The position numbers and the translations under genes are program-made. The notes beneath the pieces are model-generated. The model did no database searches and was not told the DNA's origin. It saw nothing but the letters and a program-made list of their open reading frames with translations. From the NCBI GenBank assembly GCA_039720395.1, contig CM077826.1, positions 38,034,790 through 38,098,789 on the forward strand: a stretch of DNA of 64,000 bases, given 5' to 3'. Shown here in pieces: positions 1,783 to 40,387 of this stretch (the first letter of the stretch is position 1; each line of letters opens with the position of its first letter). Origin of the DNA: Liquidambar formosana. Its lineage: Eukaryota; Streptophyta; Magnoliopsida; Saxifragales; Altingiaceae.

Positions 1783-2240
1783 TGTGAACCCCAGAAATTG
1801 GGCCCACGAGGATTGACAAAAAGATTAGTTTGTTTGAAAAAGAAAAAGGAAAGGAGTCGCCACCTCATTTTTTAAAGGAAACAAGGAAAACCCTAAAAAC
1901 AGTTTGTTTTAGGAAAACAATTTGAATGACTCCGTAAAAAAGGAAAGGCAAAAACCAATCTTTTGGAAACCAAAGAAATCGGGGATTCGGAGGCTAAGTT
2001 ATGACATGGGAAGGTTCTAGGCAAAGCCTATAGGCACCCATGTCACCCTTTCGGTCTCTCAGTTCATTTGGGCTAAATCAAGATCTTTTCCATACAAAAA
2101 TCAGCAAGTATATCATCACAAGATAGCATGCATATCATATATTTCATTCATCCATCCATGCATAATAAACACATAAAAACAGAAAATAAAGAAAAAGAAA
2201 ACAAAACAAAAAGAAGCCTAGGATGCTTGGATCCTAGAAC

Positions 2241-2307
2241 GGACTTGAGCCTCACGAAGAGCGCCTACGTACCATGCAACGAAATACATGGATCAAAGTC
2301 CACGTAG
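2241..2307 (-). other. Pseudoknot-like motif in the solo LTR
   Basis: On the minus strand the order is CTACGT, GGACTT, CCATG, CATGG, ACGTAG, AAGTCC. CTACGT can pair with ACGTAG and GGACTT with AAGTCC, and these two helices cross. This copy is identical in its stems to those in the LTRs of element A. See the motif finding for the comparison. Confidence 0.5.
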
Positions 2308-3711
2308 TTCGATTAGAACTAGGGTTAAAACTTAATATAAACCTATGGTAAAAACCCTAGGTTTCCTTATTTGATCAAAAGAGTTGAATATGATAGATAA
2401 ACCAAGTTTGATTTTAGGAAGACCTCCACAATATGGAAACTCTGATAAAAACATAATTTTGTTGGTTAAGGAAACCCTGGATTTAAACCATAGACTTGTA
2501 TTAAAAATTAACCCTAGAGAGGGAGAAGGGAAAGAATTAAGGAAGAGAGGTGAATTGGGGCACCTTCACACCCACTTACCAGAGCGCAATAGCTCCAAGC
2601 ATTAGCCATTTCAAGCATTGGCAACCCTATTTGCCATAGGACAAATACCACACCTATTTGCACCCTTACAAGTGCTCAAAACCATGCAAAAATACTAACA
2701 TGCAAATCTGGACAGAATAGTATTATGGCCTAAAATCATCTACTAAGCATGCTAATAACAAAAACATCAAACTTTCATAAGCCCTAACACAATCCTAGAA
2801 CCATACCATGCATAAAAACCCTAGAATGGACTAACATGCATGCAAAAATATCATGTTTACTCCATATGAAAAACATATACAGCAAACATGAAGAAGAACC
2901 AATGAAAAGACCTACTTTATCATGCTGTATGAAAACTAAAACAAGGACACTAACAACCCTAAACTCACAAATATACTTAAAAACTTACAAAACAAACCTC
3001 ACACATACTAAAATAAACCTAAACAGAACCTAAATCATGCATATTAACTAACTAAAGCAATAAAACATGATAAGAAACCCTAAGACTAACATGCAATAAC
3101 ACTAATCCTAGCACAAGGACAACAGGAGCACAAGAATCACACCTATGCTTAAAAACCTAAAGGACAGCCCTAAAGCATGCTAAAATTATGATAAACAGTA
3201 GATATTCCATGTATATTAACTAGCTAGAGTGTTAATACATGATAAAAAAGCTACCTTTAACATGCAATAGGCCTATCCTATATGAAAACCCATATTCAGC
3301 ATAAGAAGGAGTAAGGCATACCTTAGGAAGAGGCTTCCTTACTGCTGTAGAGACTCTCTCTTCCTCTTATGGATGACTTGAACCAATGTTCTCCAAGGCT
3401 ACAGCAAGAACTCCAGCTCTCCTTCAAGTCTCTCTCTCTTATTCCCTCTCTAACACTTAGGTTTTTAGGCATAAAGTGGCTCCCCTTGTGCTAAAGCATA
3501 GGGGGGTATTTATAGAGTTTCATTTTGATTAACCAATGGCTAGGATTAAAATCCTAAAAATTAATCCAAGGGCTATTAGAGACCCCTTGGGGCTTAAGTA
3601 ACTCAGAAGTTACCAAAAAATAGAAGGAAACCCGTCCAAAAAAGCCCTTGTACGTCAAAATAGGGAGGAATCCGCTTCAGCAAGGAAACATAGAGCAATT
3701 AGGAAAGTGCT

Positions 3712-3791
3712 CTCGGGTGACCACCAGGGCCTGGGCAGCTAGCCACCTGGGCCCAGGTGGCTAGCCGCCCGGGGCTGGGTGGTCACCCGAG
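3712..3791. repeat. Large perfect-arm palindrome in LTR U3
   Basis: Outer arms of 14 bp (CTCGGGTGACCACC at 3712-3725, its complement at 3778-3791) enclose a perfect 28-bp palindrome centred on GGGCCC (3738-3765, half-site GCTAGCCACCTGGG). It lies about 200 bp upstream of the TATA box in LTR orientation. Related palindromes occur at 41273-41353, at 25941-26002 and, in a short form, at 62766-62819. Confidence 0.75.
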
Positions 3792-4501
3792 CCCACTTCG
3801 GATTTTTCTCCTATTTTGACTCTCAATGCTTCTAGAAGTGTTTCAGGGGGCAAATTAACTCCGATTTTGATGAAAAAAAGCCAAAACGACTGTGTTTCGA
3901 TGAGGAATATGTTTTTGAACATTTTAGGGTGAAAACCACTAACCATGGGGGCATGGTTAGGTTTGAACAAAGCGGTAAACCACTATGCTCTACCTTTGCT
4001 AAGCATAGGCATGCACATAGGGCCAAACCAAACACTTTCCATATCAAAATTGAACTTCATAAAACACTTTTGGGGGTAAAATGATGACTAATGAAAGTCA
4101 ATTTGAAAAGATTTGGTTGGTAATTGTGAGTCAATTAGAGCTAACCCAAGGGAGGGTCAATTAACCAACTTTGAGCTGTATCGAGCCATTTTAATCCCGA
4201 GCCATTGATTTATCAAATTGACACTAGAAATACCTCTTATGCATCCATATGAACTCCAATTGACAATTTGGAGATCATTTCAAGGTCAAAAGAAAAGTTT
4301 GGGACTGAAAAGATGATTATGCCCCTCAAGTCACGAAAGCTCTTATTATCCCTCAAGATCAACTCCAAATTGAACCAAAATTCATATCGATTGTCCTTGT
4401 GACTCTAGAAACCTAATGCAAGTGACTAGACTTAAAAACCAAACAAAAACATGCATGAAATGATGAGCCCTAGTAAGGTGGTGCAAAAATGGGGTGTGAC
4501 A

Positions 4502-12945: not shown

Positions 12946-13617
12946 TGTTAGGATTCTGCCCTAGAGCCAATCATAGAGATGATTGTTTAGGGATTAGGAA
13001 CAATCATTTGATTTCATTTGTGTATGTCACATTTATTATTGATTTAATAAAAGGGCTTATTCTATTATGTTTATATGCATAATTTATATTTACATAATAT
13101 GTCCATGGAGTTAGAGTTGAGAATATGGAATTACAAAGAGTTGTAATTTTGAGACTGTAGATATATCTCTGTACTAAACTCCTAAAGCATTCCTAGTTGA
13201 AGGTTTACTATGATGGACAATAATGAACCATAGGACTAGCACTTGTTAGGTTGACTCTATAGGAGGATAGCTAGTCTCAAGCTATTTGTGTGGAGACACT
13301 ACAACCAACAAGTGGATGCCTATTACGAGAATAGGTACACTGAATGTGACCAAAGATATGAGATAAACTGAATGGAGTTTTATCCTGCCTGTCAATCAAT
13401 TTCTCATTGTTATAGTGGTACAAGTAATCCTTAGACCTGAGACACTATAGTTGTCTTATGCATGTAGCTTTAGAAGTTTGATAACACTAAGTGCAAATCC
13501 TATTCAGGGGTTTGCAAAGGTGTTCATTGGCCCTACTGCTATGTGTATGAAGGCATGTGAGTGATCAATAAGGGATCCATCACTCTCAGGAAAAAGAGAG
13601 AGAATGTCTCATATAGC
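12946..13617 (+). repeat. Copia 3' LTR, first part
   Basis: It matches 4931-5607 closely and ends in ATAGC (13613-13617), the target duplication made by element A. Confidence 0.92.
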
Positions 13618-14207
13618 TGTCACACCCCATTTTTGCACCACCTTACTAGGGCTCATCATTTCATGCATGTTTTTGTTTTGTTTTTGAGTCTAGTCACTTG
13701 CATTAGTTTTCTAGAGTCACAAGGACAATGGATATGAATTTTGGTTCAAATTGGAGTTGATCTTGAGGGATAATAAGAGCTTTTGTGACTTGAGGGGCAT
13801 AATCGTCTTTTAAGTCCCAAACTTTTCATTTGACCTTGGAATGATCTCCAAATTGTCAATTGGAGTTCATATGGATGCATAAGAGGTATTTTTAGTGTCA
13901 ATTTGGTAAGTCAATGGCTCGGGATTAAAATGGCTCGATGTAGTTCAAGTTGGTTAATTGACCCTTCCTTGGGTTAGCTCTAATTGACTCACAATTACCA
14001 ACCAAATCTTTTCAAATTGACTTTCATTAGTCATCATTTTACCCTCAAAAGTGTTTCATGAAGTTCAATTTTGATATGGCCTGATGATGAGTTTAGTGTG
14101 GTTATTTACGGATTATCCTTGAAGAATTAGTGCGAATCACAGCATGAGATTTTTGGTTAAAATGAAAAGAAAATTATTTTATTAAATTAGCCATTTTTAT
14201 CATGACA

Positions 14208-14271
14208 CTAACACGTGTACGTATGTGATGAGTGTGTGTACGCACATACGATACATGTGCATGCGTGTTAG
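14208..14271. promoter_or_regulatory. G-box hairpin in element A U3
   Basis: Arms CTAACACG (14208-14215) and CGTGTTAG (14264-14271) bracket a second inverted pair, GTACGTATGTG against CGCACATACG. The left arm contains CACGTG, a G-box core, and the segment is dense in ACGT cores typical of plant bZIP/bHLH sites. It lies about 140 bp upstream of the TATA box. Regulation by such factors is inference. Confidence 0.5.
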
Positions 14272-15881
14272 CGGTCAGTCTCCCGATTTTTATAAAAGAC
14301 AATTTCCTTTTCCTATTCAGATTAGAAGTCTTTTATCATTATAAAATACCTTTTAATTATTCTCCAAAGAAACCTAGTCCAGGAAGGAAAGGGAAACTCC
14401 AGATTTCAGCTATAAATACTTTCTTAATGTCTTTAAACAAGGGAGAGGAGAAGAGGGTTTGGAGGGAGTGAAATTCGTCATAATTCAGCAGCAGATTTTC
14501 TGAAAACCAGCAGTCGTATTTTAATCATAACTTTTTCATTCGAAGTCAGAATTTGATGAAATTGGTCTTGTTAGAAAGATAATTCAATTCTCTACAACTT
14601 TGTATTTCACAAGCTTTGTCCAAATCCAACGTTTGCATACCCAAAAACGCGATTGAAGTTGCTGCTGCTGCAAAGTGACGAGAATCACTTTTTCTTTTCT
14701 CTTGTTCTCTTTTTGTTTTCTATTTCTTTTCAAAGTTGAGTGAGTTTTGATCTCTTTGCTGTGATACCACTTTGACAAAGAGGAGGATTCGTGTTGGTTT
14801 GATTCACTCTAAAGACCTGAGGAGCCACGAACAATTACAAACACAAGGGGAGCCACTTCCTAAGGTATTCTCCTTCTCTATTCAAGCTTAAACTAGGTTC
14901 TCATATGGGTTAGGCTTATTGCATGTTAAAGGTGACTTTTTTATCATGTATTAACACTCTAGCTAGTTAATATACATGGAATATCTATTTTTTATCTACT
15001 GTTTAGCATGCTTTAGGGCTGTCCTTTAGGTTTTTAATGCATAGTTATGATTCTTGTGCTCCTGTTTGTCCTTGTGTTAGGATTAGTGTCATTGCATGTT
15101 AGAGTTAGGATTTTCATCATGTTATATTGCTTTAGTTAGTTAATATGCATGATTTAATTTCTGTTTAGTTTGGTTTTAGCATGATTAAAGTATGTTTTGT
15201 ATGTTTTTAAGCATATTTGTGAGTTTAGGGTTTTAGAGTCATTGTTTCGTGTTTGTTTTCATATAGCATGATAAAGTAGACTTTTTTATTTGGTTTTTCT
15301 TCGTGTTTGCTGTATATGTTTTTCATATGGAGTAAACATGATAGTTTTGCATGCATGTTAGTATGTTTTAGGGTTTTTATGCATGATATGGTTCTAGGAA
15401 TATGTTAGGACTTATTATTGTTCGCTGTTTTTGCTATTGGCATGCTTAGTGGATGATTTTAGGTCATAATACTATTCTGTCCAGATTTGCATGTTAGTGT
15501 TTTTGCATGGTTTTGAGCACTTGTAAGGGTGCAAATAGGTGTGGTATTTGTCCTATGGCAAATAGGGCTGCTTATGTCTGAAATGGCTAAATGCTTGGAG
15601 CTAATTGCGCTCAGGTAAGTGGGTGTGAAGGTGCCCCAATTCACCTTTCTTCTTAACTCATTCTCTTCTCCCTATCTAGGGTTAATTTTTAATACAAGTC
15701 CTATGGTTTAATTAGAGGTTTCCTTAACCAACAAAATTCTGGTTTTTATTAAAGTTTCCATTTTGTGGATTTCTTTCCTAAAATCAAACTTTCTATCATA
15801 TTCAACTCTTTTGATCAAATAAGGAAACCTAGGGTTTTTACCATAGGTTTGTATTAGGATTTAACCTTAGTTCTAATCGAA

Positions 15882-15948
15882 CTACGTGGACTTTGATCCA
15901 TGTATTTCGTTGCATGGTACGTAGGCGCTCTTCGTGAGGCTCAAGTCC
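15882..15948 (+). other. Pseudoknot-like motif in element A 5' LTR
   Basis: Stem strands: S1 CTACGT 15882-15887, S2 GGACTT 15888-15893, S3 CCATG 15898-15902, S3' CATGG 15913-15917, S1' ACGTAG 15919-15924, a small CTC/GAG hairpin, then S2' AAGTCC 15943-15948. S1 and S2 helices cross. It lies downstream of the TATA box, so it should be in transcribed R/U5 RNA. The same motif occurs in the 3' LTR at 30756-30822. Confidence 0.55.
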
Positions 15949-16405
15949 GTTCTAGGATCCAAGCATCCTAGGTTTATTTATGTTTTCTTTTCTTCTTTTT
16001 ATTTTCTGTTTTTATTTGCTTATTATGCATGGATGGATGAATGAAATATATGATATGCATGCAATTCTTGTGATGATATACTTGCTGATTTTTGTATGGA
16101 AAGACTTTAATTTAGCCCAAATGAACTGAGAGACCGAAAGGGTGACATGGGTGCCTATAGGCTTTGCCTAGAACCTTCCCATGTCATAACTTAGCCTCCG
16201 AATCCCCGATTTCTTTGGTTTTCAAAAGATTGGTTTTTGCCTTTCCTTTTTTATGGAGTCATTCAAATTGTTTTCCTAAAACAAACTATTTTTAGGGTTT
16301 TCCTTGTTTCCTTTAAAAAATAAGGTGGCGACTCCTTTCCTTTTTCTTTTTCAAACCCACTTTCTTTTCAATCCCTCGTGGGCCCAATTTCCGGGGTTCA
16401 CAGTT

Positions 16406-16423
16406 TGGCGACTCCACTGGGGA
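16406..16423 (+). other. Element A primer-binding site, probably tRNA-Arg
   Basis: TGGCGACTCCACTGGGGA begins four bases after the LTR. Its complement ends in GTGGAGTCGCCA, which I recall as the 3' end of a plant arginine tRNA, the primer reported for Ogre-type Tat elements. The exact isoacceptor was not checked. Confidence 0.8.
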
Positions 16424-17280
16424 TTTGTGGGCTAGACTCTATAAAGTTTAAATGGGCTAGGTTAATTTCTTATGTTTAATTAAAATCAATCACATTGCAT
16501 CCGCTTGATTGTGTGCTTTCATTTATTGCATTGTGTGCGCAAACTCTTGCATGTTAGGATCGATGTCCCTCGATGTATCCTTGCCAACGATCGGCCTAGT
16601 CTCAACCTTGGTTTTCCTGATTCCATGTGTTGGGGCGAAAGCTATCAACCTCTCTTGCCTAGTACCCTTGGGCTTGCCCTTAGGTATATTAAATGAGTTA
16701 ATCACGTACTGCTGGACCCACGCGGCGTTCCTGATGCCACATGTGGTTAGGTATAAGGATTGCTCAAGCAAGTGAAGGACCCTAGCCTACCCTTATCATT
16801 AGTCCATATAGACAGACTTGTAGGACACTACGGTCTCACCTTTATGCACCCACAATTGTTTGTAATGATGCTATGCCGTGTTTGTGGTGTGAGGCTTTAT
16901 ATCTTATGCCCTTAATATAGACCTTTAAACCCTAGCCTTCGTTAAGGCCATGGGTTAGGAGGAATAAATTAAGGAAATAGGATGTAAAGCTATGTTTGTG
17001 ATGTGCTAGTCCTAGGGGATTAATTAAACCTAATTGAAGGACTCTATGCCCTATTCTTTAAAACATACCCTTAATCCATGACCCCTGTAAAGGTAATTGG
17101 ATAAAAGGAATGAATTAATTGAACATGGTGTAGAGACCGAATTCATTAAGGAAAATATGGAAGGTTTAGGACAGATCCTTAGGCTAAAGGTTAAAACTTT
17201 TCTATCCATAGACGTGCTGGCTTGGATCCGCAATCCACAAGGGCTGCCTAGTGAGTGTTGAGTCCACCCATCAGACAGAC
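16424..17280 (+). other. Untranslated leader of element A
   Basis: These 857 bases between PBS and gag have no convincing ORF. The small ORFs at 16505-16775 and the minus ones at 17051 and 17248 are spurious. The leader probably carries packaging signals, but I see none I can name. Confidence 0.6.
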
Positions 17281-18525: not shown

Positions 18526-20620
18526 CAAGCAAGTCATTTCACCACCAACCCGTCCAAATGTCACCCGTAATCCTCTCCCATCACACAACAACACACCCCC
18601 ACCTAACACCATAAATGCCATTGGGGTTGAATCCTCTCGCCCTCGCCATCCCATAAGACAATACACTCCGCTCCCCATGACCTTAACCCGTCTCTTCACC
18701 ATTTGCCGCAATAACAGCCTTATCATGCCACTTCCACCAAAGCCAAGACCATCAACCCCTCACCAATATTGCCAATACCATCGTGCACCCGGCCATGACA
18801 CCGAGGCTTGTTCTATACTAAAGAAGATCATCCAAGACCTCATTGACCAAAAGGTTTTGTTGTTGCCAAAGAAATCTATCCAACAAGAGCTGAAAGAAAG
18901 ATATGAAGCAGGGGATCCTCAGGTTGGCCTATTAGGTGAAGCGTCGGGGAAATATGATTACTATGTGCTGTACTCAAGCCCAAGTCCGATATCAGATGAG
19001 CCGATAGTCCCTTCAGGTTGGGATGACTTGCCGACAGAGATGGAGAGCATCGACATGATAGAATGGGATGACTTGATGAATGACTCCGAGGAAGTCCATG
19101 ACATATGGGCTAGCGATGATGAGTTGGACCATATAACCAGAGGGGGTCGTCATTTCAAGCCCCCCCACCTAGAATCTGAAAATCCGTTGGAAGATTTGGA
19201 AGGGCAGAGGCGTCCTAGCTTGCAAGAAGAAGAGGATGAAGTGCTTAGGCAGCTGAAGAAGACCAATGCCAACATTACTATTTGGGGCTTGCTCATGGCC
19301 TCGCATAAGCACAGACAGACCGTGTTGAAACTGTTGAATCAGATACAAGTGCCTGTTGACACATCCCCCGAGGGATTGGTACATTTGGTGAATCCAACTC
19401 CCAAGAACTCAACCATCGTGTTCACCGATGTAGACCTACCTAAAAGCGGGCCGAGCCATTCTCAAGCTCTCTATGTGACCGTTGACACTATGGGGAAGAG
19501 GGTTCCCACCGTTCTTATCGACAATGGGTCCGCACTGAATGTATGTCCTCTCCGAACTGCCACTGTTTTGGGTTTGGGACCCACTGATTTCACGCCATCT
19601 GGGCAGACCGTAAGAGCTTATGACAACACCCGCCGAGAAGTAATAGGGGTAGTTACTTTGCCTCTTATCATGGGACCCACTGAATTTAGGGTAGAATTCC
19701 AAGTGTTGGATGTGCCGTCATGTTTCAACTTGCTGTTGGGCCGACCTTGGATCCATCCTGCTGGGGCTGTACCATCTTCACTCCATCAAAAGGTGAAGTT
19801 TCCTTACGAAGGGGCCATAGTAACACTTCAAGGGGACTATGAATTGAAACTCGCAGGTGTGCCGATATGTGAGATACAACCCAAATCAGCAGCGATACCG
19901 CTATCTGGGTTTGACTATGTCCAATGCATTGAAAAAGAGCTCGAAAAGGGTGAATTAATACCCTTGGACTTTTGTCCCCATGGCAACTTGCATGTTGGTG
20001 AAATCATGAGAAGAATGAGTTTCTTTCCAGGCATGGGGCTAGGGCGTCGCCAACAAGGGATCCCTACGTCTATTCAAAGCCGTGTCACCTCATACACCTT
20101 CGGGCTAGGATATGAGCCCTCCAGAAATGATTATGTGGAAATGCTGAAGAGGAATAAAGAGAAAGTAAGAGCCAAAGCCGAGGGAAGGGTGCCAGACCTG
20201 AGGATCTCGCCATATCGACCTACTTTGAATGGTTACTTCGTCAAAGAAGGGGATGATTTTCTATATTGCGGGTTTCCAGAACCCACCTTTGACCAAGCTA
20301 CCAAGATCCGAGTTCCGGGTTTTGAAATCTTCTTCACCGAATGGTATCCAATCACAGCTGAAATGGTGGATGATGAAGCCATCAATAATGAGTTCTGGGA
20401 AAAGAAAGAGGAAGACTGGGCAGAGAACCTTGACGCAGGGGCTATGACTGAAATGTTCCAAGATATGATCCTCACCGTGGAAGACTCGACCATTGAAGAA
20501 CTCCAGGGTTCATCCATTAGCCATGCTACTGTGCCATTCCTGAATTGGTACCTTGAATGTGGTGTCATTGCGGAGATCCATGAAGAAGAAGACCTTGGCC
20601 TACCTGATAGCAGCTTGTAG
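18434..20620 (+). CDS. pol: Gag C-terminus, aspartic protease and G-patch-like segment of element A
   Basis: The ATG at 18434 is only where the frame opens; genuine sequence enters at about 18470, after the shift in gag. It continues the zinc-knuckle-like motif (HATNRC) and has a second similar motif, YCQYHRAPGHDTEAC, at residues 112-126. An acidic linker follows. The retropepsin domain shows its catalytic D-N-G-S at residues 363-366 (LIDNGSALNVCP) and the LLLGRPWIH signature near 433-441. Residues about 521-550 contain MRRMSFFPGMGLGRRQQGI, a G-patch-like stretch that I know from other Tat polyproteins. The unspliced frame ends at a TAG at 20618-20620, which lies inside a candidate intron in frame with RT. 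The protease would cut the polyprotein in the particle. Confidence 0.88.
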   Translation: MRMSTASTTNPKGHATNRCIRLRHQVQDLIDKQVISPPTRPNVTRNPLPSHNNTPPPNTINAIGVESSRPRHPIRQYTPLPMTLTRLFTICRNNSLIMPLPPKPRPSTPHQYCQYHRAPGHDTEACSILKKIIQDLIDQKVLLLPKKSIQQELKERYEAGDPQVGLLGEASGKYDYYVLYSSPSPISDEPIVPSGWDDLPTEMESIDMIEWDDLMNDSEEVHDIWASDDELDHITRGGRHFKPPHLESENPLEDLEGQRRPSLQEEEDEVLRQLKKTNANITIWGLLMASHKHRQTVLKLLNQIQVPVDTSPEGLVHLVNPTPKNSTIVFTDVDLPKSGPSHSQALYVTVDTMGKRVPTVLIDNGSALNVCPLRTATVLGLGPTDFTPSGQTVRAYDNTRREVIGVVTLPLIMGPTEFRVEFQVLDVPSCFNLLLGRPWIHPAGAVPSSLHQKVKFPYEGAIVTLQGDYELKLAGVPICEIQPKSAAIPLSGFDYVQCIEKELEKGELIPLDFCPHGNLHVGEIMRRMSFFPGMGLGRRQQGIPTSIQSRVTSYTFGLGYEPSRNDYVEMLKRNKEKVRAKAEGRVPDLRISPYRPTLNGYFVKEGDDFLYCGFPEPTFDQATKIRVPGFEIFFTEWYPITAEMVDDEAINNEFWEKKEEDWAENLDAGAMTEMFQDMILTVEDSTIEELQGSSISHATVPFLNWYLECGVIAEIHEEEDLGLPDSSL

Positions 20621-20787
20621 GTGTCTTAGTTTAGTAATATTTCCCTAATTCAATAAGATGTATCTACTTTACTCACTTTGTGGAGTCATAGTATTGATAC
20701 AGATTTGTTTGTTTTCCTTCTTTCTTTTGTGTGTCATTCCCATTATTCCTAGTCAATAAAGTGTGCTTTCTTTCTCTATATATGCAG
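20617..20787 (+). other. Candidate 171-nt intron between protease and reverse transcriptase
   Basis: The donor GTAGGT at 20617 overlaps the TAG stop and is the only nearby GT that removes it. The acceptor is ATATATGCAG, ending at 20787 after a CTTTCTTTCTCT pyrimidine tract. 171 is a multiple of three, and both flanking frames are the same, so splicing gives one open frame. Ogre elements are known to splice an intron at this place, which supports the call. Not tested by RNA data. Confidence 0.6.
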
Positions 20788-20806
20788 TGTCTCTTTTCTC
20801 TCCTCT

Positions 20807-22912
20807 ATGGATATTTATGGCATGGATATAGATCCTAGGAACGATGTCCCCCCGGAGCTCGTTGAGCAAAGGAAAAGGGGCGTCACCGAACCTAATATGG
20901 ATGAATTGGAATCAATCAACTTAGGGACGAATGAATTGCCAAGAATAGTTAAAATTGGGAAAACCCTCTCCCCCGTTGAAAAAGAAAAGATGATCTCCCT
21001 CTTGAAAGCCAACATTATGGCTTTTGCATGGTCTTATGAAGACATGCCTGGCATTGACCCCGATATTGTGCAACACTATATCCCCACCAATTCCCTAAAG
21101 AAGCCGGTAAAGCAGAAACTCAGAAGATTAAAACCAGAATGGGCCCTAAAAGTAAAAGAAGAGGTAACTAAACAACTAGACGCGGGTTTCCTTCAAGTTG
21201 TGGAGTACCCCGAGTGGTTGTCGAATATAGTGCCTGTGCCTAAAAAAGATGGGAAAGTGAGGATGTGTGTCGACTTCCGAGATCTCAACGCCGCGAGCCC
21301 TAAGGATGACTTTCCTTTACCCCATATCGACGTGTTGGTAGATAGCACGGTGGGACATGCACTCCTCTCCTTCATGGACGGATTCTCCGGGTATAACCAG
21401 ATAAAGATGGCGCCTCAAGACATGGAGAAAACAGCCTTTATCACGCAATGGGGAACGTACTGTTACAAGGTAATGCCTTTTGGCTTAAGAAACGCTGGGG
21501 CTACTTACCAAAGAGCAGCTACGACCTTATTGCATGATATGATCCATAAGGAAGTCGAGGTTTATGTCGATGATATGATCGTAAAGTCCGTGGATAGAGA
21601 AGGGCATTTCAAGGCACTAGAGAAATTCCTAGAGCGAGCAAAAAAGTACAATCTCCGTCTCAACCCACAGAAGTGCGCTTTTGGTGTCACTGCAGGCAAG
21701 TTATTGGGGTTTATGATCACTCAGAGAGGTATCGAAGTGGACCCAGGGAAGATAAAAGCTATTGTGGAGATGGAGCCGCCTAGCACTGAGAAGCAGATCC
21801 GGGGTTTTCTGGGAAGAGTTCAATACATAAGCCGATTCATTGCCAACTTGACCATGGTTTGCGAACCAATCTTCAAATTGCTTAAGAAAGGTGTGCCAAA
21901 AGTATGGAACGAAGAATGCCAAGAGGCCTTTGAGACCATTAAGAGATACTTGAGCAATCCTCCAATCTTAGTTCCCCCACGGCAAGGTGCGCCGCTTTTG
22001 TTATACTTAACGGTCACCGAAACCGCGACGGGAGCTTTGTTAGCTCAATATCTCGAAGGGTCTACAAAGGAGAATGCCATTTATTACTTAAGCAAGAAAA
22101 TGACAGACTATGAAGTGAAGTACAATGCAATTGAAAAGGCTTGTGTGGCACTAGTATGGGCGACGCAGAAACTCCGGCACTACATGATGTCCTTCGAAGT
22201 GTTCTTGATAAGTCGCATGGACCCGTTGAAGTACCTGGTAGAAAGGCCAGTATTGTCATTCAGAACTGCTCGATGGTCAATTCTCCTCAATGAATTCGAC
22301 ATCAAGTACGTGAATCAGAAGTCTATCAAGGGAAGCGTCATCGCAGACTACCTAGCCAGCTGTCCGGTGTCATCATCCGCTCCGTTCAACGATCAATTCC
22401 CAGATGAGGACGTGCTAGAGATTGGTAGAAAAACTTGGAGAGTATACTTCGATGGGGCAGCCAATAAGAAAGGTTATGGGATAGGAGTCCTGCTGGTCTC
22501 ACCTGAAGAGGCATTTACACCGTTGGCGGTCAAGTTGGGGTTCGAAGCTACCAACAACATTGCTGAATATGAGGCCTGTATCCTAGCACTGGAAGCGGCA
22601 CTTGAATTGGGGATCAAAGAATTAGAAGTGTTCAGGGACTCGGCGCTAATCATTTGTCAGATAAAAGGGGAATGGAAAACTCGAGATGAGAAGCTGCTAC
22701 CCTACCATGCCTACCTGGAAGCTCTAACCAAGGAGTTCTCAGAGATAGAATTTAACTACCTTTCAAGGAACAAGAACCAGTTCGCCGATGCCTTGGCGAC
22801 CCTAGCATCCATGGTGGAGATACCTGAAGAGGGGAAATGTGAAGCCGTTGGTGATAGAATGCCGAGACAAGCCTGTGTACTGTTGTGCAATCCGAGGAGG
22901 AGAGGTAAATGA
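20807..22912 (+). CDS. pol: Reverse transcriptase with two RNase H domains, element A
   Basis: It copies the element RNA into DNA. The first ATG is at 20807, but the frame is open from the intron acceptor at 20788, so it is probably translated as part of the polyprotein. Residues about 100-300 are the RT palm and fingers, with FMDGFSGYNQ (D191) and the catalytic YVDD at 253-256. Residues about 390-520 are the original RNase H, in which the usual first aspartate is absent (LTVTETATGALL), so this copy is probably inactive. Residues about 541-668 are a second, archaeal-type RNase H with intact D549, E587, D611 and D661 (YFDGAANK, NNIAEYEA, VFRDSALI, NQFADALA). Dual RNase H is diagnostic of the Tat lineage. 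Near 22831-22840 one extra base in GGGGAAATG shifts the frame and a stop follows at 22910-22912; the integrase continues in the next frame. Confidence 0.93.
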   Translation: MDIYGMDIDPRNDVPPELVEQRKRGVTEPNMDELESINLGTNELPRIVKIGKTLSPVEKEKMISLLKANIMAFAWSYEDMPGIDPDIVQHYIPTNSLKKPVKQKLRRLKPEWALKVKEEVTKQLDAGFLQVVEYPEWLSNIVPVPKKDGKVRMCVDFRDLNAASPKDDFPLPHIDVLVDSTVGHALLSFMDGFSGYNQIKMAPQDMEKTAFITQWGTYCYKVMPFGLRNAGATYQRAATTLLHDMIHKEVEVYVDDMIVKSVDREGHFKALEKFLERAKKYNLRLNPQKCAFGVTAGKLLGFMITQRGIEVDPGKIKAIVEMEPPSTEKQIRGFLGRVQYISRFIANLTMVCEPIFKLLKKGVPKVWNEECQEAFETIKRYLSNPPILVPPRQGAPLLLYLTVTETATGALLAQYLEGSTKENAIYYLSKKMTDYEVKYNAIEKACVALVWATQKLRHYMMSFEVFLISRMDPLKYLVERPVLSFRTARWSILLNEFDIKYVNQKSIKGSVIADYLASCPVSSSAPFNDQFPDEDVLEIGRKTWRVYFDGAANKKGYGIGVLLVSPEEAFTPLAVKLGFEATNNIAEYEACILALEAALELGIKELEVFRDSALIICQIKGEWKTRDEKLLPYHAYLEALTKEFSEIEFNYLSRNKNQFADALATLASMVEIPEEGKCEAVGDRMPRQACVLLCNPRRRGK

Positions 22913-23627: not shown

Positions 23628-24168
23628 CAAGAACATCAAGAAGATACTACAGAAGACTGCGGACTCACACACAGACTGGCATGAGAAGTTGCCATTGGCT
23701 CTATGGGGTTACAGAACATCAATAAGATCGTCAACAGGGGCTACCCCTTATTCTCTAGTTTATGGAATGGAGGCCGTGTTGCCAGTTGAATTGGAAGTTC
23801 CTTCACTAAGAGTTGCCGTGGAGAGCCAGATAACAGAAGTGGACTGGGTTAAGAGCCGCTATGATGAGTTAGCTTTGCTGGATGAAAGGCGTTTAAGGGC
23901 GCTGTATCATGTTCAGGGGTATCAACGGAGAGTTGCCAGAGCATTCAACAAGCATGTCAAAGATCGAGGTCTAAAGAAAGGGGATGTAGTGCTGAAAGAA
24001 ATCAGAGCTCCAGTGTTCGATCCGCGGGGAAAATTCAAGCCAAGTTGGGGTGGGCCATACATTATCAAAGAGATATTGCCAGCAGGGGCTGTTCGCCTCA
24101 TGGATTTAGATGGAATTGAGTTCGCTCGTCCAACTAATTTGGACCAATTGAAAAAATATCATGTTTGA
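23605..24168 (+). CDS. pol: Integrase C-terminal part of element A
   Basis: This continues the integrase in the next frame. The third catalytic acidic residue is the E of VEAANKNIKK near its start, and KLPLALWGYRTSIRSSTGATPYSLVYGMEAVLP is the conserved core end that follows (quoted in part: ALWGYRTSIRSSTG). The C-terminal segment GKFKPSWGGPYIIKEI is the usual SH3-like region of gypsy integrases. The ORF ends at TGA 24166-24168. The apparent start MEQ is only an ATG that happens to lie at the break. Confidence 0.9.
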   Translation: MEQVEAANKNIKKILQKTADSHTDWHEKLPLALWGYRTSIRSSTGATPYSLVYGMEAVLPVELEVPSLRVAVESQITEVDWVKSRYDELALLDERRLRALYHVQGYQRRVARAFNKHVKDRGLKKGDVVLKEIRAPVFDPRGKFKPSWGGPYIIKEILPAGAVRLMDLDGIEFARPTNLDQLKKYHV

Positions 24169-24225
24169 GGCCTGCTAGGTTGAAAACCCGTAAGGGCGGC
24201 CTAGGCAAAAGTTAAAGCATAAGAA

Positions 24226-24389
24226 CTACGTAAGACCTGATTCTCCATTCAAAAACAAAAAAAAAAAAAAAACAAAAAAAACAAAAAACAAAAAAAACAA
24301 AACAAAAACAAAACAAAAACAAAAAAAAAAAAGAAGAAAAAACCATGGAGATACGTAGGCAACCCATAAAGTTACCTTGGGTGCGGTCT
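24226..24389 (+). other. Post-pol pseudoknot-like motif, element A
   Basis: Strands: S1 CTACGT 24226-24231, S2 AGACC 24233-24237, S3 TCTCCAT near 24242-24248, a long A/C-rich loop, S3' ATGGAGA near 24345-24351, S1' ACGTAG 24353-24358, a hairpin ACCCA/TGGGT (24362-24382), S2' GGTCT 24385-24389. S1 is the same as in the LTR copies, while S2, S3 and the hairpin have other sequences that still pair. The preceding segment from 24171 (CTAGGTTGAAAACCC ... CCTAGGC) is conserved in element B. Confidence 0.55.
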
Positions 24390-26002: not shown

Positions 26003-26283
26003 ACTTTGTTTTGGTTTTGCTTCTCGCTTTGTCTCGCCTTGACGCGTGATCAAACCTCCTTCCAAATGAGATATTCAACACTTTTTGAGCTTAAAATCAA
26101 TCAAATTCCATCTTGAAATCAATTCCTTGAATTGATTTTATGTTCAAAAGGGTTGAATATATTTCCCCTGTGCCATGCCAACTCAAGTGACAATGTGTTA
26201 AGACACTTTCCTCTTGCACCATGCTTGTTTAATCTTGATAAATTGATCATATATCCTCATGTCAAATCTTGATTTTTCATCTC

Positions 26284-28360
26284 ACTTGGTTGAATGTATT
26301 CATCACTTGAATATATTCTTCCATTTCAAAAGTGTATTCACCCTTTGAATATACTCCTCAGTTTCAAATTCTTGATTTTCCATCCCACTTGGTTGAATAT
26401 ACTCATCACTTGAATATATTCTTCCATTTCAAAAGTGTATTCACTCTTTGAATATGCTTCTCAGCTTCAAATTCTCATTCTCTATCATACTTGGTTGAAT
26501 ATATTCATCACTTGAATATATTCTTCCATTTCAAAAGCATGTTCACCCATTGAATATGCTTCCTAGTTTCAGATCCTCATTATCACTTACTTGGTTAAAT
26601 ATATTCATCACTTGAATATATTTCTCCATTTCAATGGTATACTCATCACTCGAGTATACTTCTCAGATATTTCGTCACTTACTTGGTTAAGTATATCCAT
26701 CGCTTGGGTATATTTCTCCATTTCAATGGTATGTTCATCACTTGAACATACTTCTCAGATCATTTGTCACTTACTTGGTTAAGTATATCCACCACTTGGG
26801 TATATTTTTTCCATTTCAATGGTATGTTCATCACTTGAACATACTTCTCAGATCATTTGTCACTTACTTGGTTAAGTATATCCACCACTTGGGTATATTT
26901 TTTCCATTTCAATGGTATACTCATCACTTGAGTATACTTCTCAGATATTTTGCCACTTACTTGGTTAAGTATATTCATCACTTGAATATATTTCTCCATT
27001 TCAATAGTATGTTCATCACTTGAACATACTTCTCAGAATATTTGTCACTTACTTGGTTAAATATATTCATGACTAGAATATATTTCTCCATTTCAATGGT
27101 GTACTCATCACTTGAGTACACTTCTCAGATTATTCTCTATCTTACTTGCTTAAGTATATCCATCGCTTGGATATATTTCTCTATTTCAATGGTATGTTTA
27201 TCACTTAAACATACTTGTCACTTACTTGGTTAAGTATATCCATCACTTGGATATATTTCTCTATTTCAATGGTATGTTTATCACTCAAACATACTTGTCA
27301 CTTACTTGGTTAAGTATATTCGTGACTAGAATATATTTCTCCATTTCAATGGTGTACTCATCACTTGAGTACACTTCTCAGATTATTCTTATCTTACTTG
27401 GTTAAATATATCCGTCGTTTGGATATATTTCTCCATTTCAATGGTATGCTCATCACTTGAGTGTACTTCTCAGCTTACTTGGTTAAATATATCCATCACT
27501 TGGATACATTTCTCCATTTCAAAAGTGTGTTCATCACTTGAACGTACTTCTCAGTCTTTTTCAATCATTAAGTATACTCATCACTTGAGTATATTTCTCA
27601 GCATCTTTTTCATCACTTGGTTAAATATGTTCGTGACCTGAATATATTTCTCCATTTCAAAAGTACACTCATCACTTGAATACACCTCTCAGATTATTCT
27701 TATCCTACTTGGTTAAGTATATCCATCGCTTGGGTATATTTCTCCATTTCAATGGTATGTTCATCACTTGAACATACTTCTCAGATTATTTGTCACTTAC
27801 TTGGTTAAATATATTCATCACTTGAATATATTTCTCCATTTCAATGGTATACTCATCACTTGAGTATACTTCTCAGTTCATTCTCTATCTTACTTAGTTA
27901 AATATATTCGTGACCTGAATATATTTCTCATTTTTCAAAAGTATGTTCATCACTTGAACGTACTTCTCAGTCTTTCTCAATCATTAAGTATCCTCACCAC
28001 TTGAGTATACTTCTCAGATTTCATTCTCACATTACTTGGTTAAATATATTCGTGACCTGAATATATTTCTCCATTTCAATGGTATACTCATCACTTGAGT
28101 ATACTTCTCAGATATTTTGTCACTTACTTGGTTAAGTATATCCATCGCTTGGATATATTTCTCCATTTCAAAGGTATGTTCATCACTTGAACGTACCTTT
28201 CAGATCTCATTCTCATCACTTGGTTAAATATATTCGTGACTAGAATATATTTCTCCGTTTCAAAAGTATGTTCATTCGTAGTGGCTTGAATATGCTTCTC
28301 TTGACAATCATCAACCCCCAGTGGTTTTGGTGTACTCATGACTTGAGTAAACTTCCTTAT
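26284..28360 (+). repeat. Tandem array of about 21 double-hairpin units, element A 3' region
   Basis: Units start with ACTTGGTTAA and recur about every 92 bp (for example 26681, 26773, 26866, 26959, 27051); the first three are about 102 bp. Each holds two inverted repeats around a conserved spacer close to ATCACTT. In the first, arms such as TATATTC/GAATATA or TATATCC/GGATATA occur; in the second TATACTC/GAGTATA, TATGTTC/GAACATA, TGTACTC/GAGTACA or TATGTTT/AAACATA. The arms change together so pairing is kept. The many short ORFs here (26591-28339) are by-products. Tandem repeats in this place are known for Tat elements. Confidence 0.9.
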
Positions 28361-28479: not shown

Positions 28480-28491
28480 ATGAGGGGCTTC
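28480..28491 (+). other. Element A polypurine tract
   Basis: AATGAGGGGCTTC sits directly before the TGTCACACC start of the 3' LTR. Element B has AATGAGGGGTATC at the same place. Confidence 0.65.
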
Positions 28492-31276
28492 TGTCACACC
28501 CCATTTTTGCACCACCTTACTAGGGCTCATCATTTCATGCATGTTTTTGTTTTGTTTTTGAGTCTAGTCACTTGCATTAGTTTTCTAGAGTCACAAGGAC
28601 AATGGATATGAATTTTGGTTCAAATTGGAGTTGATCTTGAGGGATAATAAGAGCTTTTGTGACTTGAGGGGCATAATCGTCTTTTAAGTCCCAAACTTTT
28701 CATTTGACCTTGGAATGATCTCCAAATTGTCAATTGGAGTTCATATGGATGCATAAGAGGTATTTTTAGTGTCAATTTGGTAAGTCAATGGCTCGGGATT
28801 AAAATGGCTCGATGTAGTTCAAGTTGGTTAATTGACCCTTCCTTGGGTTAGCTCTAATTGACTCACAATTACCAACCAAATCTTTTCAAATTGACTTTCA
28901 TTAGTCATCATTTTACCCTCAAAAGTGTTTCATGAAGTTCAATTTTGATATGGCCTGATGATGAGTTTAGTGTGGTTATTTACGGATTATCCTTGAAGAA
29001 TTAGTGCGAATCACAGCATGAGATTTTTGGTTAAAATGAAAAGAAAATTATTTTATTAAATTAGCCATTTTTATCATGACACTAACACGTGTACGTATGT
29101 GATGAGTGTGTGTACGCACATACGATACATGTGCATGCGTGTTAGCGGTCAGTCTCCCAATTTTTATAAAAGACAATTTCCTTTTCCTATTCAGATTAGA
29201 AGTCTTTTATCATTATAAAATACCTTTTGATTATTCTCCAAAGAAACCTAGTCCAGGAAGGAAAGGGAAACTCCAGATTTCAGCTATAAATACTCTCTTA
29301 ATGTCTTTAAACAAGGGAGAGGAGAAGAGGGTTTGGAGGGAGTGAAATTCGTCATAATTCAGCAGCAGATTTTCTGAAAACCAGCAGTCGTATTTTAATC
29401 ATAACTTTTTCATCCGAAGTCAGAATTTGATGAAATTGGTCTTGTTAGAAAGATAATTCAATTCTCTACAACTTTGTATTTCACAAGCTTTGTCCAAATC
29501 CAACGTTTTCATACCCAAAAACGCGATTGAAGTTGCTGCTGCTGCAAAGTGACGAGAATCACTTTTTCTTTTCTCTTGTTCTCTTTTTGTTTTCTATTTC
29601 TTTTCAAAGTTGAGTGAGTTTTGATCTCTTTGCTGTGATACCACTTTGACAAAGAGGAGGATTCGTGTTGGTTTGATTCACTCTAAAGACCTGAGGAGCC
29701 ACGAACAATTACAAACACAAGGGGAGCCACTTCCTAAGGTATTCTCCTTCTCTATTCAAGCTTAAACTAGGTTCTCATATGGGTTAGGCTTATTGCATGT
29801 TAAAGGTGACTTTTTTATCATGTATTAACACTCTAGCTAGTTAATATACATGGAATATCTATTTTTTATCTACTGTTTAGCATGCTTTAGGGCTGTCCTT
29901 TAGGTTTTTAATGCATAGTTATGATTCTTGTGCTCCTGTTTGTCCTTGTGCTAGGATTAGTGTCATTGCATGTTAGAGTTAGGATTTTCATCATGTTATA
30001 TTGCTTTAGTTAGTTAATATGCATGATTTAATTTCTGTTTAGTTTGGTTTTAGCATGATTAAAGTATGTTTTGTATGTTTTTAAGCATATTTGTGAGTTT
30101 AGGGTTTTAGAGTCATTGTTTCGTGTTTGTTTTCATATAGCATGATAAAGTAGACTTTTTTATTTGGTTTTTCTTCGTGTTTGCTGTATATGTTTTTCAT
30201 ATGGAGTAAACATGATAGTTTTGCATGCATGTTAGTATGTTTTAGGGTTTTTATGCATGATATGGTTCTAGGAATATGTTAGGACTTATTATTGTTCGCT
30301 GTTTTTGCTATTGGCATGCTTAGTGGATGATTTTAGGTCATAATACTATTCTGTCCAGATTTGCATGTTAGTGTTTTTGCATGGTTTTGAGCACTTGTAA
30401 GGGTGCAAATAGGTGTGGTATTTGTCCTATGGCAAATAGGGCTGCTTATGTCTGAAATGGCTAAATGCTTGGAGCTAATTGCGCTCAGGTAAGTGGGTGT
30501 GAAGGTGCCCCAATTCACCTTTCTTCTTAACTCATTCTCTTCTCCCTATCTAGGGTTAATTTTTAATACAAGTCCTATGGTTTAATTAGAGGTTTCCTTA
30601 ACCAACAAAATTCTGGTTTTTATTAAAGTTTCCATTTTGTGGATTTCTTTCCTAAAATCAAACTTTCTATCATATTCAACTCTTTTGATCAAATAAGGAA
30701 ACCTAGGGTTTTTACCATAGGTTTGTATTAGGATTTAACCTTAGTTCTAATCGAACTACGTGGACTTTGATCCATGTATTTCGTTGCATGGTACGTAGGC
30801 GCTCTTCGTGAGGCTCAAGTCCGTTCTAGGATCCAAGCATCCTAGGTTTATTTATGTTTTCTTTTCTTCTTTTTATTTTCTGTTTTTATTTGCTTATTAT
30901 GCATAGATGGATGAATGAAATATATGATATGCATGCAATTCTTGTGATGATATACTTGCTGATTTTTGTATGGAAAGACTTTAATTTAGCCCAAATGAAC
31001 TGAGAGACCGAAAGGGTGACATGGGTGCCTATAGGCTTTGCCTAGAACCTTCCCATGTCATAACTTAGCCTCCGAATCCCCGATTTCTTTGGTTTTCAAA
31101 AGATTGGTTTTTGCCTTTCCTTTTTTATGGAGTCATTCAAATTGTTTTCCTAAAACAAACTATTTTTAGGGTTTTCCTTGTTTCCTTTAAAAAATAAGGT
31201 GGCGACTCCTTTCCTTTTTCTTTTTCAAACCCATTTTCTTTTCAATCCCTCGTGGGCCCAATTTCCGGGGTTCACA
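28492..31276 (+). repeat. Element A 3' LTR
   Basis: It has the same length (2785 bp) as the 5' LTR and only scattered substitutions (for example C/A near 29158 and T/C near 29949). Its TATAAATA is at 29285-29292 and its pseudoknot-like motif at 30756-30822. Confidence 0.95.
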
Positions 31277-35458: not shown

Positions 35459-35651
35459 CCCGCTAGGTTGAAAACCTAAAAAGGCGACCTAGGCAAATGT
35501 TAGGGCTTTCAAAAAAAAAAAAAAAAATGCATTTGAACTACGAAGACCTGATTCCTTACAAAAGAAGACAAGCTTTTCAATTGTACATGTTTCTCTCAAG
35601 TATTAAGTGGGGATACATAGGCAGCCCATAAAGTCACCTTGGGCGCGGTCT
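35459..35651 (+). other. Post-pol motif of element B, partly decayed
   Basis: GCTAGGTTGAAAACC...GACCTAGGC (35461-35495) matches 24174 of element A. After an A-run come CTACG (35538-35542), AGACC (35544-35548), ATACATAG (degraded S1' at 35613-35620), the hairpin GCCCA/TGGGC (35624-35644) and GGTCT (35647-35651). The hairpin closing pair is G-C where element A has A-T. Confidence 0.5.
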
Positions 35652-38383: not shown

Positions 38384-40387
38384 TGTAGACACCCCATTTT
38401 TATCCTCTAATTCCACACCTTTCTACCTTAGGAGCATTATCATTTATAGAGAATTGCATCATTTTGGCACCAAATCTTTTTAGTTAAGCTCTATACATCC
38501 CAAAGAGTCCATGGTATCCTCCGAGGTTCAATTTGGTTAAGTCTTGATAGCTAATAGGAATTTTTGTGATTTTGAGGGTATTTATGTCATTTCACTTGCA
38601 TAATTTTTATTTGATATCCAATTCTCATCAAATTCATCTCAGGATGATCATAAGGGCCTTAGGATATCATGAATAGGCTTGATTTAAAATTTGTTTAAGT
38701 TCGGAGATGATTTGCTTAACGATGGTCCAAATAGGCTCGGTTTGACTATGTTCGTCGGCCCTTCTTATAATTGCTTCTTAATTTGATCCAATTGACTTCA
38801 ATTAATGCTTCATTAATGTCAATTGGGTCTTAATTAAGGTGTATTAATGCTTGGAATTATTTTTGGGAGAGTTTGATTGCAACTAGGACTCTATTAGGGT
38901 TCAAACCCTAATGTCATCCCGGTAAGCCTTAATTGATCTCTATAAGCCATATGGGCTTAACCCTTGATTAATTGACCAAGTGTGGCTCAATTAGGATTTT
39001 TTTTTTTAACTAGATTTTGAATAGAGAATTGAGACATGGTCGTTTTAAGACCAAAATCAATGAATTTAGACTTGAAATAGGCAAAATACATAGCATAAAG
39101 GGATAAGCATGCACAAAAGTGAGCTAAAAAGGCTACTGGTGGCCGTATGTCCACCAAGGAAGGCCAAACAGCCACTTATGGAGGGCCAAACGGCCCCCAA
39201 GGGTGCTCGTTGGCCTTTGATAGAGTTTTGCCTTATCTTGACTTCTATAAACTCCTTCTTTTGCTTCAACTCGAATTTCCTTTGGATTTTTGTAGAGTTT
39301 GAGATAGGAACCAGTTCTTGGGAGTGTTTGAGAGCCCTTGGATCATCCCTAGCTAGATCCAATCTGGGCCATTCATTCCACCCACCTCCCACTATAAATA
39401 GGGGTCCTCCCTTCCTTTATTGATCATCAAGTCTTAGTAGAATTTTCCTAAGCAAATGAAGAGCTTGAGTTCTTGAGCATAGGGTGAACGTTCCTATTAG
39501 TATCCCTTCACTTGAGACTCATTCTAAAGAAGAGCTTGGCTCAATAGTTATTGGGGAACGTTCCTATTAGTACCCTCTAACTTGCGACCCATTCTAAAGC
39601 TTGAAGACGCGGAAGCTCTGCCCGACTTGCGACTCCCTCCCTTAAGGTCATCTTAAAGCTTGGAAAGCGTGGAAGCTCTGTCCAATTTTCAACTCAAAAA
39701 CCCCGAGGTTGAAAATAGAACTCTGGCTCAGTTCTGTCAGGTATAATTTCTAAACTCCATTGCCATGATATAATTGCTTATGTGATGATGCATGCTCCCA
39801 CGAGTTTTATTATTCATAGGATTTTATTAGGATTTTGATCCAAAATCAAACAAGTTTTTAAACTAAAGTTGTTTATCTTAAAGCAAGTAATTATTCTCAA
39901 AATAAAGTGTTTGATTATGGATTGGATTCTAATAGAGTCCTACGAGGAGTGAAACTCTCCCCCCTAAGATGATTATTCGAACTACGTGGACTTTGATCTT
40001 CGTCAGAAGTACGTGGGCTGCTCACTTGAGCCCAAGTCCAACTTAGCTTAGTTTTTATCTTTTAATTTTCATAATTTTTAGATATTGCATGGTTGAAATT
40101 AATTAGGCCCAATCAATAAATGAGACCAATTTATCGGGCAAAATGGGTGCCTATGGGCCGTGGCCCAGAACCTTCCTATTTCGTAACCTAGCCCCCGTAC
40201 CCTTTTTTTTGGTTCAAGACTTGTCTATTTTCCATTAATGGAATCAAATTTGTTTTTGTAAAATAAATATTTTAGTGGTTTCCTCATACCCTAAAAATGA
40301 GGTAGCAACTCCTTGCTTTTTGAAAACCCCTTTTAAAAGTGGAAACAGAAACTCGATTCTCCTCCGAGTCGATTTCCGGCGTCTACA
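38384..40387 (+). repeat. Element B 3' LTR
   Basis: This 2004-bp LTR starts TGTAGACACCCCATTTTTA and ends CGGCGTCTACA, with a TATA box (CACTATAAATAGG, about 39391-39403). Ends and layout resemble the element A LTR although most sequence differs. The ORFs at 38987, 39066 and 39109 overlap on opposite strands and are not supported. Confidence 0.88.
39982..40039 (+). other. Pseudoknot-like motif in element B LTR
   Basis: S1 CTACGT 39982-39987, S2 GGACTT 39988-39993, S3 CTTC 39998-40001, S3' GAAG 40006-40009, S1' ACGTGG 40011-40016 (one G-U pair), a GGGCT/AGCCC-type hairpin, S2' AAGTCC 40034-40039. S3 differs from element A in both arms. Confidence 0.55.

Follow-up and report, generated by a model that had tools for sequence, protein, structure and literature searches.

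A recurrent RNA motif with covarying helices in Tat retrotransposons, a probable signal for the handling of element RNA

The window analysed here, a stretch of 64,000 nucleotides of Liquidambar formosana DNA, holds a long terminal repeat (LTR) retrotransposon (element A), a second element (element B) and further LTR sequence. Element A is laid out as follows.

13617..16402, + strand: 5' LTR of element A, 2786 bp, 99.7% identical to 28491-31276
16406..16425, + strand: presumed primer-binding site (PBS) of element A, so labelled from its position right behind the LTR
20753..22912, + strand: frame of element A with reverse transcriptase (RT), RNase H and an additional RNase H, a mark of the Tat lineage
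28491..31276, + strand: 3' LTR of element A, with the purine-rich stretch GAGGGGCTTC before it

In the frame at 20753-22912, RT_RNaseH is followed by RVT_3, i.e. by a second RNase H downstream of the native one. Behind pol, an antisense frame carries a plant mobile domain (PF10536; 24510-25850, minus strand). Because it combines RT, RNase H, the additional RNase H and this antisense frame, element A belongs to the Tat lineage of Ty3/gypsy. The antisense frame is in keeping with those of Retand elements, for which a 2025 survey reports antisense frames and tandem repeats in the post-pol region (PMC11963269). Tandem repeats of about 92–103 nt each are present at 26249-28275 of the window, between the antisense frame and the 3' LTR. 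A stretch bounded by GT...TGCAG (20617-20787) lies between the pro and RT frames and is possibly an Ogre-type intron. The pol frame ends at 24168, about 4.3 kb from the 3' LTR, and a TATA-like box is found at 14411 in LTR A. Element B is worn, including its pol frame. The minus-strand LTR at 1783-4501, called a solo LTR in the initial annotation, matches LTR A in parts.

The motif described in this work occurs at six sites in the window. Its helices are named P1, P2 and P3 (formerly S1, S2 and S3) and P4 (the hairpin before S2'); the strands, read at their coordinates, are given below.

15879..15948, + strand: LTR-leader class motif in the 5' LTR of element A; GAA 15879-15881; P1 15882-15887/15919-15924; P2 15888-15893/15943-15948; UGAU 15894-15897; P3 15898-15902/15913-15917; P4 within 15925-15940
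30753..30822, + strand: LTR-leader class motif in the 3' LTR of element A; P1 30756-30761/30793-30798; P2 30762-30767/30817-30822; P3 30772-30776/30787-30791; P4 within 30799-30814
2241..2310, - strand: motif in the A-family minus-strand LTR; strands 2307-2241
39979..40039, + strand: LTR-leader class motif in LTR B; P1 39982-39987/40011-40016 (one T.G); P2 39988-39993/40034-40039; P3 39998-40001/40006-40009; P4 inner stem 40020-40023/40028-40031
24223..24389, + strand: post-pol class motif of element A, about 55 nt past the end of the pol frame (24168); P1 24226-24232/24352-24358; P2 AGACC 24233-24237/GGTCT 24385-24389; UGAU 24238-24241; P3 24242-24248/24345-24351 (96-nt A-rich loop); P4 24359-24366/24378-24384
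35535..35651, + strand: post-pol class motif of element B, flank as in element A, P1 worn; P2 35544-35548/35647-35651; P3 35553-35559/35607-35613; P4 35621-35628/35640-35646

All strands of the initial annotation were found where it had placed them (15882-15948, 30756-30822, 2307-2241 on the minus strand, 39982-40039, 24226-24389 and 35538-35651). Its count of five independent or semi-independent sites comes down to four semi-independent ones: LTR A, whose three copies form one family, LTR B, post-pol A and post-pol B. The first stem had been given as always CTACGT with ACGTAG or ACGTGG and worn in post-pol B; the damage in post-pol B was seen, and LTR B has a T.G opposition as well.

The motif recurs more than chance would allow. 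The core pattern GAACTACG..TGAT..TACGTRGGC, searched in full as GAACTACGN{5,9}TGATN{4,34}TACGTRGGC, had 9004 exact matches in the 718-Mb genome from which the window comes, against none for the reversed pattern. A sub-pattern omitting the commonest P2 gave 423 matches (reversed, 0), and for each genome pattern the letters of about the first 100 matches were available. With a looser pattern, 19 site readings were obtained in 267 kb (the window, locus L001 and 20 sampled stretches) and none in the reversed sequence; the window accounts for six, L001 for one and the sampled stretches for 12. They represent 18 distinct places, as L001 and L044 820 are one place, and the sample is not random, since L043 and L044 are neighbours of L001, which is contained in L044, and ten of the stretches come from no more than about 0.5 Mb away from the window. 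The reading L037 5284, with three mismatches, was excluded from later sets as too worn. As the invariant letters belong to the core pattern, their invariance is partly produced by the search itself.

In a collection of genome contigs the pattern had 29 matches, 27 of which look like unrelated bacterial DNA. The other two, L002 (NZ_QPKJ02000028.1) and L020 (JAFUBK010000065.1), are filed as bacterial and carry plant-like retroelement DNA in which the whole fold is present. In L002 this is an LTR with a primer-binding site behind it; L020, apparently a chimeric contig, differs in its P2 (GGCCTT/AAGGCC). A sub-threshold Rfam match to wcaG in L002 (28.5 bits vs 42) is probably due to chance. A collection of viral contigs yielded no match to a stricter pattern and none in an RT protein search, and the two matches from a further search there are both unrelated. 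These two and the 27 bacterial ones served as a background for the pairing rules: P2 reached at least 4 pairs in 18 of the 29 and P3 at least 3 in four, both rules being passed by two. Among real sites 20 of 24 pass both, including L063, where the pairing falls at the wrong place. Given that 18 of 29 unrelated sequences reach the P2 threshold, P2 discriminates poorly when it is taken by itself and its 3' partner is left free.

From 5' to 3' the motif reads GAA, the 5' strand of P1 (CUACGU), 0–3 nt, the 5' strand of P2, UGAU, the P3 hairpin, P1' (ACGUAG), P4, 0–2 nt and P2'. No nucleotide separates P1 from P2 in LTR A, LTR B and L002; the spacer is 1 nt long in L001 and up to 3 nt elsewhere, and P3' abuts P1' either directly or via a U preceding P1'. 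The P3 loop varies from 4 nt in LTR B to 96 nt in post-pol A, with no common letters seen. P4, initially drawn as a simple hairpin before P2', is by eye better described as two closing pairs directly behind P1' and an inner stem, with a single bulged base between them on the 5' side; the second of the closing pairs is disrupted in LTR B/L072, L047m, L056b, L071, L079, L084 and L085.

The letters of P2, P3 and P4 change from family to family and their pairing is kept. P2 occurs as GGACTT/AAGTCC, GGCCTT/AAGGCC, AGACC/GGTCT, GGCT/AGCC, TGACT/AGTCA, AGGTC/GACCT and GGGTC/GACCC. With strand borders that were set by eye with the pairing in view, which favours the within-site value, pairing within sites exceeded pairing between sites in P2 (5.57 vs 1.71; 7 types, permutation p 0.00037), in P3 (5.91 vs 2.00; 11 sequences, 0 of 100,000 permutations) and in P4 (5.64 vs 2.02; 14 sequences, 0 of 100,000). 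The covariation anticipated for these stems across families is thus found. Within the same borders, G.U oppositions outnumber A.C ones by 20 to 4 in the helices, which points to the sense transcript as the selected molecule. The cross-pairing was used for P2 and P4 because the MAFFT alignments (A1-A3) misplace P4 and P2'. On alignment A3 (12 sequences, covering P1 and the first three P3 pairs), each of the three P3 pairs shows two-sided change; taken over both P1 and P3, the score (0.295 vs 0.140 shuffled) and the share of paired cells (97.2 vs 90.0) were reached by none of 500 shuffles, and two of the five measures, the number of two-sided pairs (107/500) and of pair types (415/500), did not rise above the shuffles.

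In three loci whose P2 5' strands had been recorded before the loci themselves were retrieved, P2' agreed with expectation each time, one being of the GGCT type already known from L056 and two of a new type, TGACT. Among the 24 representative sites, not all of them independent, three fail a strict P2 rule at the expected place (L047m and L063, broken, and L077, by a single G.U) and two (L083, L085) fail a strict P3 rule. The argument that variable stems imply selection on RNA shape is therefore supported for P2, P3 and P4, which re-pair across families with a wobble bias that fits the sense strand, and not for the first stem. The data support three nested helices, in which P2 closes a junction holding the hairpins P3 and P4, next to the conserved UGAU; being nested, the covarying helices by themselves make up a three-way junction.

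P1 behaves differently. In 12 representatives none of its pairs changes on both sides: four of the six never vary, one is U.G once and one is broken once. Genome-wide, at the two CpG pairs among the six, compensated double changes (44 and 43) are not in excess over uncompensated ones (52 and 38), and CpG decay in dead copies is the simplest account of all four counts. The first stem is thus nearly invariant, as had been claimed, and by that very invariance lends no covariation to the fold. The same qualification applies to the crossing helices, i.e. the pseudoknot: the P1 strands are complementary, and since P2, P3 and P4 are nested, any crossing depends on P1, the helix without covariation. 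We nevertheless regard base pairing between the invariant flank GAACUACG and UACGUAGG, the equally invariant stretch between P3 and P4, as likely; it would give a compact pseudoknot. The reasons are that these strands complement each other, do not vary and stand immediately next to the other helices. P1 and P2 might instead be alternative, mutually exclusive helices of a two-state RNA switch with no pseudoknot at all. When five copies were folded without pseudoknots, L001 and L020 took up P2+P3+P4, L002 took up P1+P3+P4, and the folds of LTR A and LTR B were different ones; the choice of L001, L020 and L002 would suit such a switch, and covariation is blind to whether helices coexist or alternate. 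The ends of P1, P2 and P4, however, abut with linkers of 0–4 nt, which would suit a compact joint fold, and we consider the switch unlikely.

Wherever its context was read the motif lies in noncoding RNA, and it occupies three positions: the transcribed LTR leader, the region just after pol, and a place 162–182 nt before the polypurine tract (PPT). The LTR class is defined by the P2 letters GGACTT or GGATTT. In all 41 readings (L001 and L044 share a place) a second covarying hairpin follows 169–497 nt downstream, and in 13 of them a PBS follows at 512–794 nt. Behind motifs of the other classes no such hairpin was found in five 3-kb loci (L056, L062, L071, L079, L080). With start sites taken from TATA-like boxes, the presumed transcript would run for about 1.4 kb before it reaches the motif in LTR A and for about 0.55 kb in LTR B. 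Copies of the post-pol class lie about 55 nt past the pol stop in element A and in L047. L056a and L062a sit behind a gag frame, L056a 1.28 kb upstream of a pre-PPT copy, and we infer that both belong to this class; L083-L085, of each of which about 100 nt were read, were left without one. The pre-PPT class, at the distance given above from the PPT/LTR start, comprises four places (L043, L056, L071 and L079/L080). The last of these, a single place, carries two copies in tandem, which are complete, 148 nt apart and just upstream of the PPT and LTR start (L079 1687 and 1539, minus strand). Among the matches listed for the genome there is a similar pair, also 148 nt apart (C1:9807066 and 9807214).

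So far the P2 letters go with position: LTR copies have GGACTT, post-pol copies AGACC or GGCT, and pre-PPT copies AGGTC or GGGTC. The original division into GGACTT in LTRs and AGACC after pol is seen in the data and widened by the other types. The picture of one copy near each end of the RNA is incomplete, for other families have the third, pre-PPT site, once doubled. The end-to-end contact built on that picture finds no specific support, the P2 letters differing between LTR and 3' copies.

The second covarying hairpin is itself a structured RNA of U5, present at 16143-16186, 31017-31060 and 40141-40181 (plus strand) and in the 2036 region (minus strand). It has a stem of 7–10 bp, a conserved internal loop UGCCUA/GAACCUU and an inner hairpin. 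Seven of its 15 pairs change on both sides in seven sequences, with a score of 0.444 vs 0.214 shuffled (0 of 500). Its folding energy stands out in LTR A (z -3.9), L001 (z -4.8) and L002 (z -3.1) and is unremarkable in LTR B (z -0.6). A third possible hairpin of U5, closed by GGAGTC/GACTCC, was noted by eye at about 16250-16335 of the window and at 3168-3245 of L002; its 3' arm, GGTGGCGACTCC, has letters similar to those in the first half of the presumed PBS at 16406.

Among known RNAs, HDV-like ribozymes come closest in topology, with an identical order of eight strands and a P1 of 6–7 bp beside P3'. In these ribozymes the letters of L3 help to form P1.1, and the J4/2 strand carries the catalytic C and an adjacent A. 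The motif differs from them by its UGAU between P2 and P3 and its invariant P1 letters. A conserved small L3 is absent, given the P3 loops of 4 to 96 nt; J4/2 is 0–2 nt long, with a C-A-A in the LTR class that is free only if P2 is shortened to 4 bp, and the letters at J4/2-P2' of the post-pol and pre-PPT copies (GGTCT, AGCC, AGTCA, GACC) offer no C-A-A, so an HDV-type J4/2 is doubtful at best. The J1/2 spacer is also lacking, the lengths being those given above for P1-P2. In one study, an HDV-like ribozyme had no activity without this spacer and little with one nucleotide, and a short P3 with a conserved L3 loop helped to form the core (PMC4908430). The ribozyme models of Rfam gave no match in the window with E values as high as 5, and none at the motif with values as high as 10; all Rfam matches listed scored below their gathering scores, among them one to GIR1 in L001, away from the motif (19.4 bits vs 100), which was discarded. 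Topology thus fits an HDV-like ribozyme, the core (spacer and small L3) does not, and from the letters self-cleavage appears unlikely.

Other resemblances concern position. Mammalian transport elements usually sit in the 3' noncoding region near the 3' LTR, and those of the CTE/RTE type drive nuclear export through an export receptor. Like M-PMV CTE, IAP RTE and MusD MTE, the motif is structured cis-acting retroelement RNA with 3' noncoding copies near the 3' LTR, the pre-PPT copies at four places and the post-pol class both having that noncoding placement. Unlike them it has its own fold and letters, is also present in the LTR leader and belongs to a plant host. The MusD element is described as pseudoknotted in a 2025 review (PMC12786077). 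The stability element of Rous sarcoma virus (RSE) is comparable to the post-pol copies, which lie directly behind a stop codon with long RNA following; the motif differs in being about 70 nt long and structured in most copies and in having further copies elsewhere. The RSE reportedly acts after the gag stop codon. Retrozymes, i.e. hammerhead ribozymes in plant LTRs, share with the motif a structured RNA inside plant LTRs, and differ in that the motif has no hammerhead match in Rfam, an autonomous Tat host and three positions.

All this suggests that the motif is probably a signal for the handling of element RNA. Our preferred reading, offered tentatively and drawn from these analogies, is a folded cis-acting domain of Tat RNA that acts as a docking site for the export or stability of the full-length transcript. 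The three nested helices and the likely P1 would form a compact domain, a host or element protein would read it through the invariant letters and dock there, and docking would secure the export or stability of the full-length RNA, or protect it from decay, in spite of a long leader, an apparent intron and a 3' region of more than 4 kb. Such a task would be comparable to that of CTE, RTE and MTE in mammalian retroelements. Each copy would fold independently and copies would add up, which would explain their presence in the LTR leader, after pol and before the PPT. A protein-docking domain suits a fold that appears constrained in the sense RNA, noncoding and repeated, and whose core letters are kept while its hairpins drift. 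Export or stability is preferred because the 3' copies are where mammalian transport elements sit, because some 4.3 kb separate pol from the 3' LTR, and because of the intron-like GT..TGCAG stretch.

The same positions would also suit packaging, dimerisation or translation control. Packaging or dimerisation, in which Gag would recognise the fold or P1, through its palindromic UACGUA, would bring two genomic RNAs into kissing contact, is the main rival, close behind export or stability, and is possible if somewhat doubtful: the P1 strands are self-complementary and nearly invariant, and the LTR copy stands in the transcribed leader, upstream of the PBS by the 512–794 nt measured in 13 cases and near the second structured hairpin. 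The post-pol and pre-PPT copies, however, are far from the usual place of a packaging signal, and intramolecular pairing is simple, with P2 and P4 abutting P1. A shield against nonsense-mediated or long-3'-UTR decay, after the manner of the Rous sarcoma virus element, would explain the post-pol copies some 55 nt past the pol stop, which in element A have more than 4 kb of RNA behind them; no long frame is known ahead of the LTR and pre-PPT copies, and we rate this account as rather improbable.

Considerably less probable is a self-cleaving ribozyme of HDV topology that would free a gag-pol RNA by cutting in the LTR and post-pol copies. The strand order P1-P2-P3-P3'-P1'-P4-P4'-P2' and the many invariant letters speak for it; the short or missing P1-P2 spacer, without which an HDV-like ribozyme was inactive (PMC4908430), the variable P3 loop, the short J4/2 as paired here, P1 letters that stay fixed while the hairpins vary, the lack of an Rfam ribozyme match at the motif and the destruction of genomic RNA that cleavage would entail speak against it. 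We give just as little weight to a new catalytic or switch RNA that would keep the HDV topology around a core of its own (GAA, CUACG, UGAU and UACGUAGG) and cleave or rearrange at the LTR and 3' copies; were it true, Tat elements would trim or circularise their gag-pol RNA. Least credible of all is a DNA-level element, in which CTACGTGG and TACGTAGG would be ACGT-core bZIP sites and the stems incidental. The ACGT core of that site family is present, but the other three helices restore their pairing from family to family, the wobble pairs point to the sense RNA, and the sites of LTR A and LTR B lie downstream of a TATA-like box.

We found no description of the motif in a literature search that ran largely outside subscription journals and included a text search for its letters, where the 20 titles listed, out of 44 hits, looked unrelated; the main text of the Retand survey does not contain the words ribozyme, hairpin or secondary structure (PMC11963269). 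The motif would be a candidate RNA family that is absent from Rfam as searched here. The 2025 review notes a lack of direct studies on how the RNA of plant LTR elements is exported (PMC12786077). The motif would also serve as a marker for Tat copies, including those without coding sequence, and a fold of about 70 nt reused at three kinds of place, with differing P2 letters, gives a handle for reporter work. Tat elements make up a large part of many plant genomes, and the export, retention and packaging of their very long RNAs, on which this motif may bear, are little known.
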